Below, one piece after another: positions 43,927-52,925 of a stretch of DNA of 64,000 nt. Each line of letters begins with the position of its first letter. The first letter of the stretch is position 1. Origin of the DNA: Deltaproteobacteria bacterium (GTDB taxonomy: Bacteria; Desulfobacterota; Binatia; UBA1149; CAITLU01); assembly GCA_016218925.1 (NCBI GenBank), contig JACRCR010000160.1, positions 25,718 to 89,717 on the forward strand. Direction: 5' to 3'. The position numbers and the translations under genes are program-made. A model generated the notes under the pieces. The model had not been told where the DNA came from, searched no databases, and was given only the letters and a program-made list of their open reading frames with translations.

Positions 43927-44330
43927 GTCGATTCCTCGGGCGGACGGCCTGACAGGCGGCGTCCGCATTGCTGGTTGAGAAAGTGAAAAATTTGCCCGGG
44001 TGGCGGTCAGAGCCTGGGCTGCGTCGAGTTGCCCGAGTCCGACGCGCCCTTCCGAGGCGGCCCACCATGCCTGCGTTCCGATCGCGTGACAACGCTTCGT
44101 CGCCCGGTAGGGCGAGACCTCGATCATCCGACCCACTCGAGGTCCGTCTCGGGAGCTTGCTGCGACATCGCTCCGTGCGGTGGTTCTGCGAAGACGCCTG
44201 CCGCGGCGAGCCGGTGGCGCAGGGGCATCGCCCTCAGCCGCGACAAGCGCTCGCAAGACAACCTCTCTCCCTGACATCGCCACCGCACCGGGATAGGATC
44301 CGAGCGAAAACGTTGGAGCGGGGTGTCGCC

Positions 44331-47300
44331 ATGAGGGGATTTCGGTGTCACGCGCACGGGGAACGTGCGAACACGTCTCGGGCCTTCGGCCGCGTGCGCC
44401 TGTTGTGGGGCGGACTGCTGTTGCTCGGTGTTCTCGCCGCGCCGGCGACCGCCGCCGCGGTTTGCGGCGACGCGATACTAGACCCTAGCGAAGAGTGTGA
44501 TCCGGGCGGCGGCACCTACGTCGACGGCGACCCGGCCAACGGTTCGTGTAGTACCGGCGGCGACTGCTTCTACGAATTCAGTTGCTGCAAGTTCAACTGT
44601 CAGTTCGTCGGCGAGGGTGCGACCTGCTTCGACGACAATCCGTGCACGACCGCCGATCAATGCGACCAGGTCGGCAACTGCGGCGGCAACAACGTACCTG
44701 ACGGCGGGCTCTGCGATGACGGATTGTTCTGCACGGTCGGCGACCAGTGCACCGCCGGGGTCTGCTCGGGGCCGGCCTACGATTGCAGTGACTCCAACGT
44801 GTGTACCGACGACTCGTGCAACGAAGCCGCCGATTCGTGCTCGAACGTGCCGAACGCCGTGGCGTGCGACGATGGCCTGTTTTGCTCGACCGGCGATCAG
44901 TGTTCGGGCGGCGCCTGCTCGGGGACGGCGCTCAGTTGCGACGATTCGAACGCCTGTACGGACGACTCGTGCGACGAGGTGGGCGACGCCTGCATCAACG
45001 CGAACAACGCCAATGCCTGCGACGACGGCCTGTTCTGTACGGTGAGCGATGCCTGCACCGGCGGCCTCTGCACCGGCCCGGCCCGCGACTGCGGCGACTC
45101 CAACGCGTGCACCGACGACTCGTGCAACGAAGCGGGGGACGTCTGCATCAACGCCGACAACGCCGACCCGTGCGACGACGGCCTGTTCTGCACGGTGAGC
45201 GACGCGTGCGCGGGCGGCGTCTGCACCGGCGCGGCGCGAGACTGCGGCGATGCCAACGTCTGTACCGACGACGTGTGCGATGAAGGCACAGCCGCGTGCA
45301 GCAACCCGAACAATACCGCCGCTTGCGATGATGGTCTGTTCTGCACGGCCACCGATAGCTGCTCGGCCGGCGCATGCGTGGGAAGCGGCAACGGCTGCGA
45401 CGATGCCAATGCCTGCACCGACGATACCTGCATCGAGGTCGGGGCTCTGTGCCTGTACGCGAACAACGCGGCGGCGTGCGACGATTCCGACGCTTGCACG
45501 ACGCTCGATACCTGCTCGGGCGGCGTGTGCGTGGGCGGTCCGGCGCTGGTGTGCGACGACGCCAACATCTGCACCGACGACTCGTGCAGCCCCTCGCTCG
45601 GGTGCGTCTTCGACGGCAACGGGATTTCGTGCGACGATGGGCTCTTCTGCACGCTGAACGACCGTTGCCGCGCCACCGTGTGCTCGGGCGCCGCGCGCGA
45701 CTGCGGCGACGGGAACATCTGTACCAGCGATTTCTGCGACGAGGCCGGCTCGGCCTGCGGCAGCGCGTTCAATACCGTCGAGTGCGACGACGGCGACGCC
45801 TGCACGGTCGACGACCGCTGCAGCGGCGGCTCGTGCGTGCCTGGCGCGGCCATGACGTGCGACGATTTCAACGTCTGCACCGACGAGGCTTGCGATCCGA
45901 GCGTTGGATGCCAGTTCTTCTCCAACTCCCTGGCGTGCGACGACGCCGATCCTTGCACGCCGGCCGATACCTGCGTGGCGGGCGCCTGCCAGGGCAGCGG
46001 CTCGCTTTGCGGCAACGGGATCGGCGACGGCGGCTGCGGTGAGACCTGCGACGACGGCAACATCGCCGACGGCGACGGCTGCTCCGGCGCGTGTCAGCTC
46101 GAGCTTCGCGCGGAGCTGTCGCTGGCCAAGGTGGACGATTTCGACCCGGTTCTTCCGGGCGGCCTCCTCACATACACGCTGGCGTACTCGAACAGCGGCG
46201 AGGCCCCGCTGACGGGCGTTGTGGTGTCCGATCTGGTCGATCCCAGTACTACGTTCTTTGCGGCGCAGCCGGCGCCCGACGATGGCACGCAGGATCGCTG
46301 GACGATCGGCGCGCTCACACCCGGACAGAGCGGTAGCATCCAAGTCACGGTGGTCGCCGGCGCCGATCTCGGCGACGGCGACATCCTGCTCAACGCAGCC
46401 GAGATCGCTGCCGACGACGGCACGCTCGCACAAGCTACCGAGTCGACAGCGGTGTCGGCGAGCGTGAGCACGGCGCTGCTTCGGGTCGACGTCGCTCCGT
46501 ATCTTGCGTCGTCGCGCGCGCCGGGATCGCTGATCTACGCGGTGTTCTATCGAAACGAGGGCTCGGACACGGCGGTGGCGGCAACGCTCGCGTTGGAGTT
46601 CCCCGCCGGCATGACTTTCGGTGGCGCCACGTTGGCGCCGGCGTCGCAATCGCAGGCGACTGCGTCGTGGTCGCTCGGGGACCTCGAGCCGGGCGCGCGC
46701 GGGGGCTTCGTAGTTGCGGCGCGCGTGACCTCGGGTCTCGCCGCTGGCACCTCGCTGGCGGCGTGCGCGCAGCTCAGCGGTCTTGCGCCGGAGGGGGCCC
46801 TGGACGGGCCGGGTCTGCATGGCGGTTCCTGTGCGACCGCGAACGTCATCGGGCAGTGCGATCTGTGGTTCGCCAAGACGCACGAGCCGGTCGCGACCCT
46901 GCCCGGCGTAACCGGCGCGGTGTTGTCGCCGGCGGCGACCGCTCCGGTTGGTGCCGGCGGCGATGCGCTGGCGCGAGCTTCCGTCCGGGTGCTGGCGTCG
47001 CGTCTGTCGGGTAAGCAGCGGGCGCTGGTGATGCGTGCCGTCGATCCGCCGCACACGGCGACCGTCGCAGGCAACCGCAACGCGCGCGCCGGCGGCGGTG
47101 TGAGCTACTCGATCCGTTACAAGAACATCACGGTCACCAATTCTCTCGACGTCACGGTTGCGGATGCCGTCACGCTGACGCTGATCGCTCCGGCGCCGGC
47201 GTCGAGGGTGGGAAACTCGCTTCATTGGGACAACCTGGTGTCGCCGAGCGGCGCGGTGGCGCTTCGCGGCGTGGTCGATCCTGCAGCCGCGCCAGGAACG

Positions 47301-48806
47301 CTGCTGGAGGTGGCTGCGCAGCTCACCGACGATGCGGCCGCGATCGCCAGCGGCTCGTTCTCGACGCTGGTGCTCGACGATACCACGCCGGCTGCCGGCG
47401 ACGGCGCGCCGCTGGTCAGCGTCGCGGGAGTGCGCAACGCCAGGGCCGCGGCGGCGGTTTCGTTCAGTGTGCGCTATAGCCACGCCGGCGATTCCAACGC
47501 GCTGGTACTCGATCTGCCGGCGGGTCTCTCCGTCTCGTCGACATCGCCGCCGGCCGACGCGACCGGCGATGCAACGCTTGCCTGGAACGACCTGCACGCG
47601 CCGTCGGGGAGCATCGCCATACGCGGCGAACTCGCTCCCGATCTCGCGCCGGGCACCGCTCTGACGCTTTCCGCCACGCTGACCAACGACGGCGGCGAGT
47701 CCGCCACTGGCGGTTTCACGACCACGGTGCTGGAGCCGCGGCCCGACACGGTCGATGCGCCGCCGACGCTGGTAGGGACCGACATCACTTACGAGCTCCG
47801 CTGGCTGGCGCCGTGCCAGGACGGCGCGACGCTCGAAGTGCGCGACAGGCTTCCAGCGGATCTCGAACTGGTGACGGCTTCTGCCCAGCGCGGGTTCGTC
47901 AGTCGCGAAGCGGCCGGCGTCGCGATGGCGTTTCCGAGCACGCCGGCGGGTGCGCCGCAGGTCGCCCGCCTCTTCTCGCGGGTAGCTGCCGATCCGGCGC
48001 CCGGCACCCTCGTGGTCAACGAAGGTGAGGCCACTTTCGCCGCAGGCGTCAGCCGAGACGCGGACCTGTTCGAAGTGCCCGACCTCGGTGGCGTCGATGC
48101 GACGCCCAGGATCGACATCCTCGGTCGTACGACGGTTCGTGATGGCCGTGCGATCACACTCAGCGTTCGCGCCGCTGGACTCGCGCCCGGCGCGCGTGTG
48201 GTGGTCGCAGTTCCGGCCGAACTGGTTCCGACGTCGATCCAGCCGGAGCCGAGCGAGGTGGCCGGGAACGTCTTTACCTGGACGAATCTGCAAGAGACGG
48301 CGGTCTCGCTCCGCGTGCGAGGCGATATCGTGCTCGGCGACACGCCGGCGCTCGCGGCCTACGTTACGACTACCGCTGCCGTGCGAAACCCCGACGGCAA
48401 GCAAGCCACCACCGAGTTGCACACGCTGGCCACGATTCTTCGCAAGCCGCCCAAACCGCCGGTGGTACGCCCGGCGAGGTTCTCGCTGAGCGGCCAGCGG
48501 TGGGTCACCGACGGTGGGCGCGTCACTCTCGTTGCGCGCTACCACAACGTGGCCGGCAGCGCGGCGATCGAGATGGCGCTGCCCGAGCAGTTCGTCGCCG
48601 ACGCCGTCTACCCGGAAACCGGTACCGTCAACGGCAACATCATCCGCTGGCCGGCTACCAGCGGCGCCTCCGGCAAGGTCTCCGCGCTCGTGCACGTCGA
48701 TTTCGCCGGGGACTCTTCGGAGATCGACGTGGTGACGTCCACCGCGACGCTGACGCTCGAGAGCGGCGAGGTTCTGAGCCGCTCCCGCGGCTTCCTGGTG
48801 CGTTGA
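44331..48806 (+). CDS. Very large secreted Cys-rich repeat protein (Dicty_CTDC-like repeats, then DUF11/Ig-like region)
   Basis: ORF 43968..48806, likely start ATG 44331 with signal peptide; repeated CDDGLFCTVxDxCxxGxCxGxxxxCxDxNxCTDDxC; CGNGIGDGGCGETCDDGNIADGDGCS; DUF11-like LSLAKVDDFDPVLPGGLLTYTLAYSNSG. Confidence 0.88.
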   Translation: MRGFRCHAHGERANTSRAFGRVRLLWGGLLLLGVLAAPATAAAVCGDAILDPSEECDPGGGTYVDGDPANGSCSTGGDCFYEFSCCKFNCQFVGEGATCFDDNPCTTADQCDQVGNCGGNNVPDGGLCDDGLFCTVGDQCTAGVCSGPAYDCSDSNVCTDDSCNEAADSCSNVPNAVACDDGLFCSTGDQCSGGACSGTALSCDDSNACTDDSCDEVGDACINANNANACDDGLFCTVSDACTGGLCTGPARDCGDSNACTDDSCNEAGDVCINADNADPCDDGLFCTVSDACAGGVCTGAARDCGDANVCTDDVCDEGTAACSNPNNTAACDDGLFCTATDSCSAGACVGSGNGCDDANACTDDTCIEVGALCLYANNAAACDDSDACTTLDTCSGGVCVGGPALVCDDANICTDDSCSPSLGCVFDGNGISCDDGLFCTLNDRCRATVCSGAARDCGDGNICTSDFCDEAGSACGSAFNTVECDDGDACTVDDRCSGGSCVPGAAMTCDDFNVCTDEACDPSVGCQFFSNSLACDDADPCTPADTCVAGACQGSGSLCGNGIGDGGCGETCDDGNIADGDGCSGACQLELRAELSLAKVDDFDPVLPGGLLTYTLAYSNSGEAPLTGVVVSDLVDPSTTFFAAQPAPDDGTQDRWTIGALTPGQSGSIQVTVVAGADLGDGDILLNAAEIAADDGTLAQATESTAVSASVSTALLRVDVAPYLASSRAPGSLIYAVFYRNEGSDTAVAATLALEFPAGMTFGGATLAPASQSQATASWSLGDLEPGARGGFVVAARVTSGLAAGTSLAACAQLSGLAPEGALDGPGLHGGSCATANVIGQCDLWFAKTHEPVATLPGVTGAVLSPAATAPVGAGGDALARASVRVLASRLSGKQRALVMRAVDPPHTATVAGNRNARAGGGVSYSIRYKNITVTNSLDVTVADAVTLTLIAPAPASRVGNSLHWDNLVSPSGAVALRGVVDPAAAPGTLLEVAAQLTDDAAAIASGSFSTLVLDDTTPAAGDGAPLVSVAGVRNARAAAAVSFSVRYSHAGDSNALVLDLPAGLSVSSTSPPADATGDATLAWNDLHAPSGSIAIRGELAPDLAPGTALTLSATLTNDGGESATGGFTTTVLEPRPDTVDAPPTLVGTDITYELRWLAPCQDGATLEVRDRLPADLELVTASAQRGFVSREAAGVAMAFPSTPAGAPQVARLFSRVAADPAPGTLVVNEGEATFAAGVSRDADLFEVPDLGGVDATPRIDILGRTTVRDGRAITLSVRAAGLAPGARVVVAVPAELVPTSIQPEPSEVAGNVFTWTNLQETAVSLRVRGDIVLGDTPALAAYVTTTAAVRNPDGKQATTELHTLATILRKPPKPPVVRPARFSLSGQRWVTDGGRVTLVARYHNVAGSAAIEMALPEQFVADAVYPETGTVNGNIIRWPATSGASGKVSALVHVDFAGDSSEIDVVTSTATLTLESGEVLSRSRGFLVR
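44712..46007 (+). repeat. Coding tandem repeat, 153 nt (51 aa) unit, eight full units plus a ninth half unit
   Basis: TGC codon of the unit-initial Cys at 44712, 44865, 45018, 45171, 45324, 45477, 45630, 45783 and 45936, each exactly 153 nt apart. Confidence 0.93.
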
Positions 48807-51220: not shown

Positions 51221-51717
51221 CGCCGTGCAGCAAGACGCCCGCTGCGCGCGGCCAGCGCGAGTTGCAGAACTCGGCCGGCGGCGCGCGGCGACGCAGGCCG
51301 GCACGGTGGCGCTGGGGATGAGTCGATCTGCGGAGCCGGCCAAATGGCCATTCTCTCCTTGCCAGGATCCGGCCATGAGGGGTAGATTGCGGCCGCACTG
51401 CGTCGGCTGATCATCCGTCTTTGTCGGCAACAAGGAGGGGTCCGATGGCGGGATGATCCCAACTGCGGTTGCTCAGCGGCCCGAGTGGCCGCGCCGTTCA
51501 GCGGAGAAGGCGCGGTCGCTCGCGACGGCTGCATCTTGCTGCTCCTGGTAACTCCGAGTTCAAGTTGGCCGGCTTCGTCTCGTCGGAACCGTGACCGTGC
51601 TGTTGGTGCAATGCACGATCGGCGTCGCCGCGGCGCCGAACCAGCTCAGTGCGGGTGGTCGATCGTGACGGGGTCGGCGTGATCGCAACCAAGCAAACCG
51701 AGAAAGGGAGGTGTCTC

Positions 51718-52200
51718 ATGCCAAGAGTCGGGTCAGGGAAAGTGGCTGTCGCTCTGGGTGCGGTGCTGCTTTTCGCCAGTCAGGGCTGGGCGTTCAATCC
51801 TCAGCCCGAACCGCCGGGGATATTCGGCGTGGTGAGTAGTCAGAGCATCGGTGTGAACATCGTGAACGTCGGCGGCAAGCGCAACGAGACCTGTGACGTC
51901 AAGCTTCAGCTGCTGGATAGCGCCGGCGCGGTCGTGGAAGAACTTCAAGTCCGCGATCTTCAGGTGGCACGGTCCAGTTTGCTGGTGGTCGACGCCGGCC
52001 GGTTCGGTCTCGCGCCGGGGCAGCGCAAGCAGCTTCGTGCGGTGGTCGTGCCGCTCATTTCGCCGGCGCTGGGCCGTAGCTGCAACAGCCTGATGCTGCC
52101 TACTGTCGAGATCTTCGACACCACGACAGGAGAGTCCGGGTTGATCTTGAGTCCGGCGGTCTTGAAGGGATTCAATCCGCAGCCGGAACCTCCGGGGTGA
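51718..52200 (+). CDS. Secreted hypothetical protein flanked by FNPQPEPPG at both mature ends
   Basis: ATG 51718 after gggaggtg; signal peptide ending QGWA; FNPQPEPPG at 51793-51819 and at the extreme C-terminus 52171-52197. Confidence 0.85.
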   Translation: MPRVGSGKVAVALGAVLLFASQGWAFNPQPEPPGIFGVVSSQSIGVNIVNVGGKRNETCDVKLQLLDSAGAVVEELQVRDLQVARSSLLVVDAGRFGLAPGQRKQLRAVVVPLISPALGRSCNSLMLPTVEIFDTTTGESGLILSPAVLKGFNPQPEPPG

Positions 52201-52439: not shown

Positions 52440-52925
52440 ATGAGAACGGTGAGTGTGGGTTTGTTGATCCTGCTGTTTGCGGCCACCACCGCGAATGCGG
52501 CAGGCTTGGGGCCGCGCAAAGCCAGTGACCTCGTGATGATCACCGCTTCGAACACCGATTGTCCCTTCGGCGGAGAGGCGATCGACCTGAGGTTCGCCGC
52601 CGATGGAACCACCAGCGCGCTCGTGATTCCGGCAGGGCAGGCGCTGGTGGTACAGAGCGTCCAGTGGCGGACGTTCGGTATCGTGGCGTACGAACATATC
52701 GAGCTTCTGCTGAGTCTGCAGACCGCCACCGGAGTCGCCACCGCAGTGGCCGGTGACGGCAGCATCTCGGATAGTCTGGGCGGCAACGCGGGGAGTATCC
52801 AGATCACTCCTGGGGTGATCGTTCGTCCCGGTCAGACACTGTGCACTACCTGCACGTCCGCGTTTTCCTCTCAGACGGTTCAATGCCTCGGCACTGCGCA
52901 GGGTTTTCTTACCAAGGACAAGTAG
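52440..52925 (+). CDS. Secreted Cys-containing hypothetical protein
   Basis: Signal peptide MRTVSVGLLILLFAATTANA; four Cys in the mature region. Confidence 0.7.
   Translation: MRTVSVGLLILLFAATTANAAGLGPRKASDLVMITASNTDCPFGGEAIDLRFAADGTTSALVIPAGQALVVQSVQWRTFGIVAYEHIELLLSLQTATGVATAVAGDGSISDSLGGNAGSIQITPGVIVRPGQTLCTTCTSAFSSQTVQCLGTAQGFLTKDK

Follow-up and report, generated by a model that had tools for sequence, protein, structure and literature searches.

The nonapeptide FNPQP[DE]PPG recurs on unrelated exported proteins and may be a portable extracellular ligand motif

Why should a small secreted protein begin and end with the same nine residues? The question is raised by P0001, a gene in the 64,000-nucleotide stretch of a Deltaproteobacteria bacterium genome analysed here (contig JACRCR010000160.1; the whole stretch is called the window), whose 160-residue product carries FNPQPEPPG at residues 26-34, the predicted mature N-terminus, and again at residues 152-160, the extreme C-terminus, as an earlier note on this DNA had described. 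Our results show that the pattern FNPQP[DE]PPG, referred to below as the motif or tag, is spread over exported proteins with many unrelated folds, can be separated from the domain that it accompanies in P0001 and, in the form of mini-peptides, is associated with a particular exporter. Our tentative view is that the motif and its sister form LNPQPLPP serve outside the cytoplasm as a portable short linear motif, to which a conserved partner binds.

An exact-pattern scan for FNPQP[DE]PPG in GTDB, with one genome per species, returned at least 115 stretches and at least 152 occurrences beyond the two of P0001 (154 copies listed in all), whereas chance alone would give about 0.2 copies over the encoded proteins of the whole collection, or about 1.2 if all six frames are counted. 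Since the pattern recurs far above expectation, chance is excluded, and the unverified impression of the earlier note that NPQPEPPG-like strings occur in other uncharacterised proteins proves to be an understatement. Among the matches listed, to which the counts of copies and carriers below also refer, 125 proteins including P0001 fall into 76 BLAST components when the word is masked, and into 66 clusters after merging the tiny peptides with a KAG-type leader; by eye they make up about 30 clearly different families, a count made by eye because small low-complexity proteins cluster poorly. The carriers span many bacterial phyla and one archaeon and are mostly exported: they include mycobacterial secreted peptides, myxobacterial lipoproteins, alphaproteobacterial PEP-CTERM proteins, planctomycete beta-roll proteins, Zixibacteria repeat proteins, Paenibacillus peptides of 52 residues, a Nif11 precursor and an archaeal protein.

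The 154 copies are encoded by 139 distinct nucleotide versions, and it is therefore the peptide rather than the DNA that is conserved. The same holds within P0001, whose two 27-base tag stretches, TTCAATCCTCAGCCCGAACCGCCGGGG and TTCAATCCGCAGCCGGAACCTCCGGGG, show synonymous differences only, which bears out what had been claimed from the codons of this gene. A mobile DNA element or contamination was ruled out as a source, given these 139 versions and the presence of the word in complete isolate genomes; many carriers are metagenome-assembled genomes, and several are complete or isolate genomes. One viral contig matched the motif, and plasmid and phage collections gave no tblastn match to a 27-residue query, which is insensitive. 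A backwards control pattern had no match in 395, 141 and 150 genomes. The word itself is rare in samples from which the start genomes are left out, being found in 1 of 394 genomes from the phylum of P0001, 2 of 140 around Minicystis and none of 149 around Mycolicibacterium (3 of 683 in all). Carrier genomes often hold several unrelated copies: those of Mycolicibacterium have 3-4 loci, and one Terriglobia genome encodes a KAG peptide together with two tagged domain proteins. In the genome of P0001 the two copies in that gene are the only ones.

The position of the motif in its carriers is not fixed. Copies stand after Sec signal peptides, lipobox cysteines or double-glycine leaders, at C-termini, in loops, inside beta-rolls and within tandem repeats. 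A heuristic classification places 65 of the 154 copies directly behind a plausible site of export cleavage (33 Sec, 14 lipobox, 18 GG/KAG leaders) and 18 further copies within 8 residues of the stop. The residue preceding the tag is glycine (70) or alanine (43) in 113 of the 154, and a [ND]PG[VS][ILW]xG-like stretch often stands before internal and C-terminal copies. The residue following PPG is not conserved, and binding by a GYF domain was dropped on this ground.

PPG is a strong EF-P-dependent stall motif, and the word could accordingly be a translational pause, stalling ribosomes without EF-P so as to time export or folding. Many copies do stand just after signal peptides; however, FNPQ and PPG recur as a unit in different contexts, copies lie anywhere in the chain (the protein L094 has NPQPEPP five times) and the final glycine becomes K, R, T or A in variants, and we hold this explanation to be very improbable.

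Other words accompany the motif. The sister form LNPQPLPP is found in the same proteins or genomes, and a second word, LLPAV, is present in 13 of the 125 motif proteins versus 0 of 862 neighbouring open reading frames (p=1e-12, indicative only, as the neighbours include shadow reading frames and the motif proteins include relatives). LLPAV[QKHE] or LPAVQ is seen in the unrelated motif proteins L021, L023, L030, L039, L067, L078, L080, L088, L110 and L115, and resembles the DUF1559/pilin-like string LLPAVQAARE. FNPQPEPPG in turn resembles the gliadin epitope core PFPQPELPY, probably through mere shared proline-rich composition.

In P0001 itself the two tags frame a predicted domain, as laid out in the following features of the window:

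51706..51713, plus strand: ribosome-binding site GGGAGGTG, 4 bases 5' of the ATG (from sequence)
51718..52200, plus strand: P0001 coding sequence, secreted two-tag protein of 160 residues (ATG 51718, TGA 52200)
51718..51792, plus strand: signal peptide MPRVGSGKVAVALGAVLLFASQGWA, residues 1-25 (from sequence; helix 8-19 in the AlphaFold2 model)
51793..51819, plus strand: first tag FNPQPEPPG, residues 26-34, at the predicted mature N-terminus, directly after QGWA/F
51820..52149, plus strand: beta-sandwich domain, residues 35-144, with C59 and C122 (AlphaFold2; family alignments)
52150..52170, plus strand: linker SPAVLKG preceding the second tag (sequence comparison)
52171..52197, plus strand: second tag FNPQPEPPG, residues 152-160, the last nine residues at the extreme C-terminus

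The strong ribosome-binding site and the G+C content of the codons (74% at third positions versus 47% at second) are as expected of a real gene. The signal is of the Sec type, with no double-glycine-type leader, and its cleavage at the AxA-type site QGWA/F (the slash marks the cut) was predicted by eye. In the AlphaFold2 model, strands span residues 35-144 with a confidence score (predicted local distance difference test, pLDDT) mostly above 90, and both tags lie outside the predicted fold without secondary structure, the first with a pLDDT of about 65-87 and the second with low confidence. The mature protein has two cysteines, C59 and C122, as had been noted; they lie near positions where many homologues show 'PC' and probably form a disulfide. 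Nothing scored above any family cut-off in Pfam and NCBIfam, and the sequences of solved structures gave no usable match. A fold search returned only generic beta-sandwiches with low TM-scores, topped by Ena2A spore fibre subunits, and was not used. Elsewhere in the window, the next gene on the same strand (52440-52925, 240 bases 3' of P0001) encodes 161 residues with a signal-peptide-like start, no motif and no known family, and a large open reading frame at 43968-48806, whose true start codon may lie further downstream, carries DUF11 and cysteine-rich Dicty_CTDC repeats and encodes a probable surface protein.

Does the tag belong to this domain? With the word masked, BLAST groups at least 20 motif carriers of other phyla with P0001, and a profile of homologues, trimmed of their tags and built without P0001, matches its core with an E-value of 5e-17, the best of 2,000 shuffles reaching 0.19. 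In genomes around the Terriglobia carrier G454 this profile found three proteins in G454, two of them with FNPQPDPP, and 16 homologues in the other genomes, none with FNPQP (0/16) and one with a loop FDPQPDPPK. Four further genomes of the class to which the window belongs encode the P0001 domain, all four without the tag. The P0001-type domain is a family separate from the tag, most of its homologues being without it.

The tag can be gained at either end of the domain: it is N-terminal in L015, L036, L064, L087 and others, and C-terminal in L025, L039, L063, L070, L074, L076, L082 and L109. In L073 and L080 it precedes each of two tandem domains (tag-domain-tag-domain). Among the domain homologues compared, P0001 is the sole single-domain protein tagged at both ends, so that bracketing, which the earlier note had taken to suggest a recognition or assembly signal, is not supported as a rule. 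The PGxxxG-tag boundary of L073 and L080 resembles the C-terminal SPAVLKG-tag of P0001, whose linker is also comparable to the NPGVIRG, KPGEAAG and SPGSLVG that precede the tag in other phyla; the C-terminal end of P0001 thus looks like an inter-domain boundary. In this regard, the tag could be a linker between tandem P0001 domains, left at both ends of a one-domain protein, and the tandem forms therefore suggest an origin for its two copies. As an account of the motif this is quite unlikely: it leaves unexplained the same nonapeptide in unrelated folds and in 19-residue peptides, there is no need for a linker to be identical from phylum to phylum, and most homologues have no tag. Because the motif is found in unrelated proteins, such a relic can account for the duplication only.

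The simplest setting of the motif is in mini-peptides. Minicystis, Archangium, Acidobacteria and Thiodictyon encode peptides in which the word comes after a short leader (MKTKTSVKAG, MKVKTNIRGG), and the predicted core of some peptides of 19-23 residues is the word alone (MKxKTxVKAG/FNPQPDPPG). The mini-peptides stop at the word or run on for a few residues, as many as 14 in Thiodictyon, where the word precedes an NRCDTVRR tail common to its neighbour peptide. The same KAG-type leader is also found on peptides with other cores, such as the LNHNQ core in L234, some of which are multi-core polyproteins. One multi-core peptide of Minicystis rosea (L230:8567-9160) consists of five KAG-leader units with cores of the (WP)QHNETLVRA type, like WPQHNETLVRA, and the related NHNETLVR stands near the end of a tagged Sec protein in L067.

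At L055, L205, L234 and L236 the mini-peptides are adjacent to, or at most 3 kilobases from, genes for HlyD and a C39-peptidase ABC exporter, the exporters being about 50% identical between phyla. This exporter is present in 6 of 6 genomes with KAG peptides versus 0 of 20 others (26 searched; Fisher p=4e-6). These four loci thereby outline an uncharacterised C39-ABC/HlyD exporter family with KAG/RGG-leader mini-peptides in three phyla; at L205 a flavin adenine dinucleotide (FAD)-dependent oxidoreductase lies between exporter and peptide. A separate GG-leader peptide of Mycolicibacterium, ending in FNPQPEPPGKPTQRQ, is encoded near a cyclic-nucleotide (cNMP)-C39-ABC exporter. C39 exporters cut leaders after double-glycine motifs and read V at -4, the listed endings being GG, GA and GS (PMC6363468). 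The KAG leader has 10 residues with V or I at -4, and AG at the cut in most cases, GG or RGG in some. That the leader is cut off and the mini-peptide set free is a prediction. As the transporters score below the NHLM_micro_ABC1/ABC2/HlyD cut-offs, we call the systems NHLP-like only. In L091:248-5217 the core of a Nif11 precursor (leader above cut-off in TIGR03798, 35.7 versus 32.3 bits) begins with FNPQPEPPG and is flanked by a B12/radical SAM protein and a HemN-like radical SAM protein, a probable cluster for a ribosomally synthesized and post-translationally modified peptide (RiPP).

Bacteriocin-type leaders, C39 exporters and a Nif11 precursor between radical SAM genes would suit an antimicrobial or toxin peptide, with the free KAG cores acting like bacteriocins or proline-rich peptides and the secreted proteins as decoys or donors; the apidaecin core IPQPRPP is similar to the motif. 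Position 6 of the nonapeptide is nevertheless D or E and the word is not cationic, no immunity gene was identified, and most copies lie inside larger proteins, all of which makes this explanation unlikely.

A processing or sorting signal, at which an envelope enzyme (sortase, exosortase or transpeptidase-like) would cut or join as at LPXTG or PEP-CTERM, would in turn explain why many exported proteins carry one exact short word, often at a terminus. We also regard it as improbable: besides the free position of the motif, no membrane helix or basic tail follows it, tagged lipoproteins are already anchored, and some carriers have a separate PEP-CTERM. An all-versus-all comparison of 862 neighbour open reading frames of motif loci, covering linked genes only, found no recurrent gene or enzyme family. 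The suggestion of a recognition or binding motif in the earlier note survives as the best reading, whereas sorting or ligation is weakened by the free position and by the KAG peptides, in which what is predicted to be exported is the word itself.

The word is position-independent, exact, conserved at the protein level and nearly restricted to exported molecules, which suits a short linear ligand motif more than it does a tag for sorting, a ribosomal pause or a linker. We propose that, outside the cytoplasm, a conserved partner (a receptor, an envelope protein or a processing enzyme) would bind the motif. P0001 would then be a secreted beta-sandwich scaffold showing it twice, possibly a bivalent ligand that bridges partners or binds more tightly. 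In KAG genomes, the C39-peptidase ABC exporter would remove the 10-residue KAG/RGG leader, probably freeing a 9-13-mer, and the free peptide may be a soluble ligand of the same partner as the tagged proteins, acting as a signal or a competitor.

Several points weigh against this proposal. The matches listed are not a random sample, no binder was found among the linked genes, and the P0001 gene is present in one species, its sequenced congener being without it. Most carrier genomes lack the KAG exporter, and that of P0001 gave no match; the word can therefore exist without the free peptide. A bound state of the motif, the bivalency of P0001 and any signalling role are inferred.

That the motif is new rests on two grounds. 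P0001 and the mini-peptides matched no model above cut-off in the family libraries, except for the Nif11 leader of L091, and the strings FNPQPEPPG, NPQPEPPG, NPQPDPPG, NPQPLPP, KAGFNPQP and NHNETL appear in none of the open-access papers searched, subscription literature being outside the search; furthermore, the defining features of the tag classes tested are absent from it. Short of specific recognition outside the cytoplasm, it is difficult to account for an exact nonapeptide with varying codons on unrelated exported proteins of many bacterial phyla. A common reader, if there is one, would point to a widespread, unrecognised extracellular binding system, and the mini-peptides offer simple, synthesizable ligands for finding it. 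A wider notion, which we consider doubtful, is that a lexicon of extracellular peptide words (FNPQP[DE]PPG, LNPQPLPP, LLPAVQ, NHNETLVR) common to many phyla, exported as free mini-peptides by a dedicated C39 exporter for KAG leaders and displayed on unrelated secreted proteins, would constitute a new recognition or communication code.

How does the motif compare with known systems? It shares with LPXTG sortase and PEP-CTERM exosortase tags that a brief, exact word marks many unrelated exported proteins. Those tags are C-terminal and followed by a hydrophobic helix and basic residues, whereas the motif is N-terminal, internal or C-terminal, without membrane helix, basic tail or recurrent enzyme, and P0001 ends at it. 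Proline-rich antimicrobial peptides such as apidaecin and oncocin have, as the motif does, an aromatic or aliphatic residue followed by xP[QR]PxPP; they are cationic, whereas the nonapeptide has one acidic and zero basic residues, is bacterial and is embedded in larger secreted proteins. The double-glycine leader peptides of C39 (AMS/PCAT) exporters, including Nif11 and NHLP (PMC2887384, PMC6363468), share with the KAG/GG mini-peptides a short leader with V or I at -4 and the association with C39-ABC and HlyD genes. The KAG systems differ from them by a 10-residue leader ending in AG (or RGG) and by exporters below the NHLP cut-offs, and the motif differs in that Sec proteins such as P0001 contain the same core as well. 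With respect to the proline-rich short linear motifs of eukaryotes (ligands of SH3, EVH1 and GYF domains), the motif is bacterial and extracellular and is without a fixed PPG+hydrophobic or PxxP+basic signature; what it has in common with them is a short word of polyproline-II type spread over unrelated proteins.
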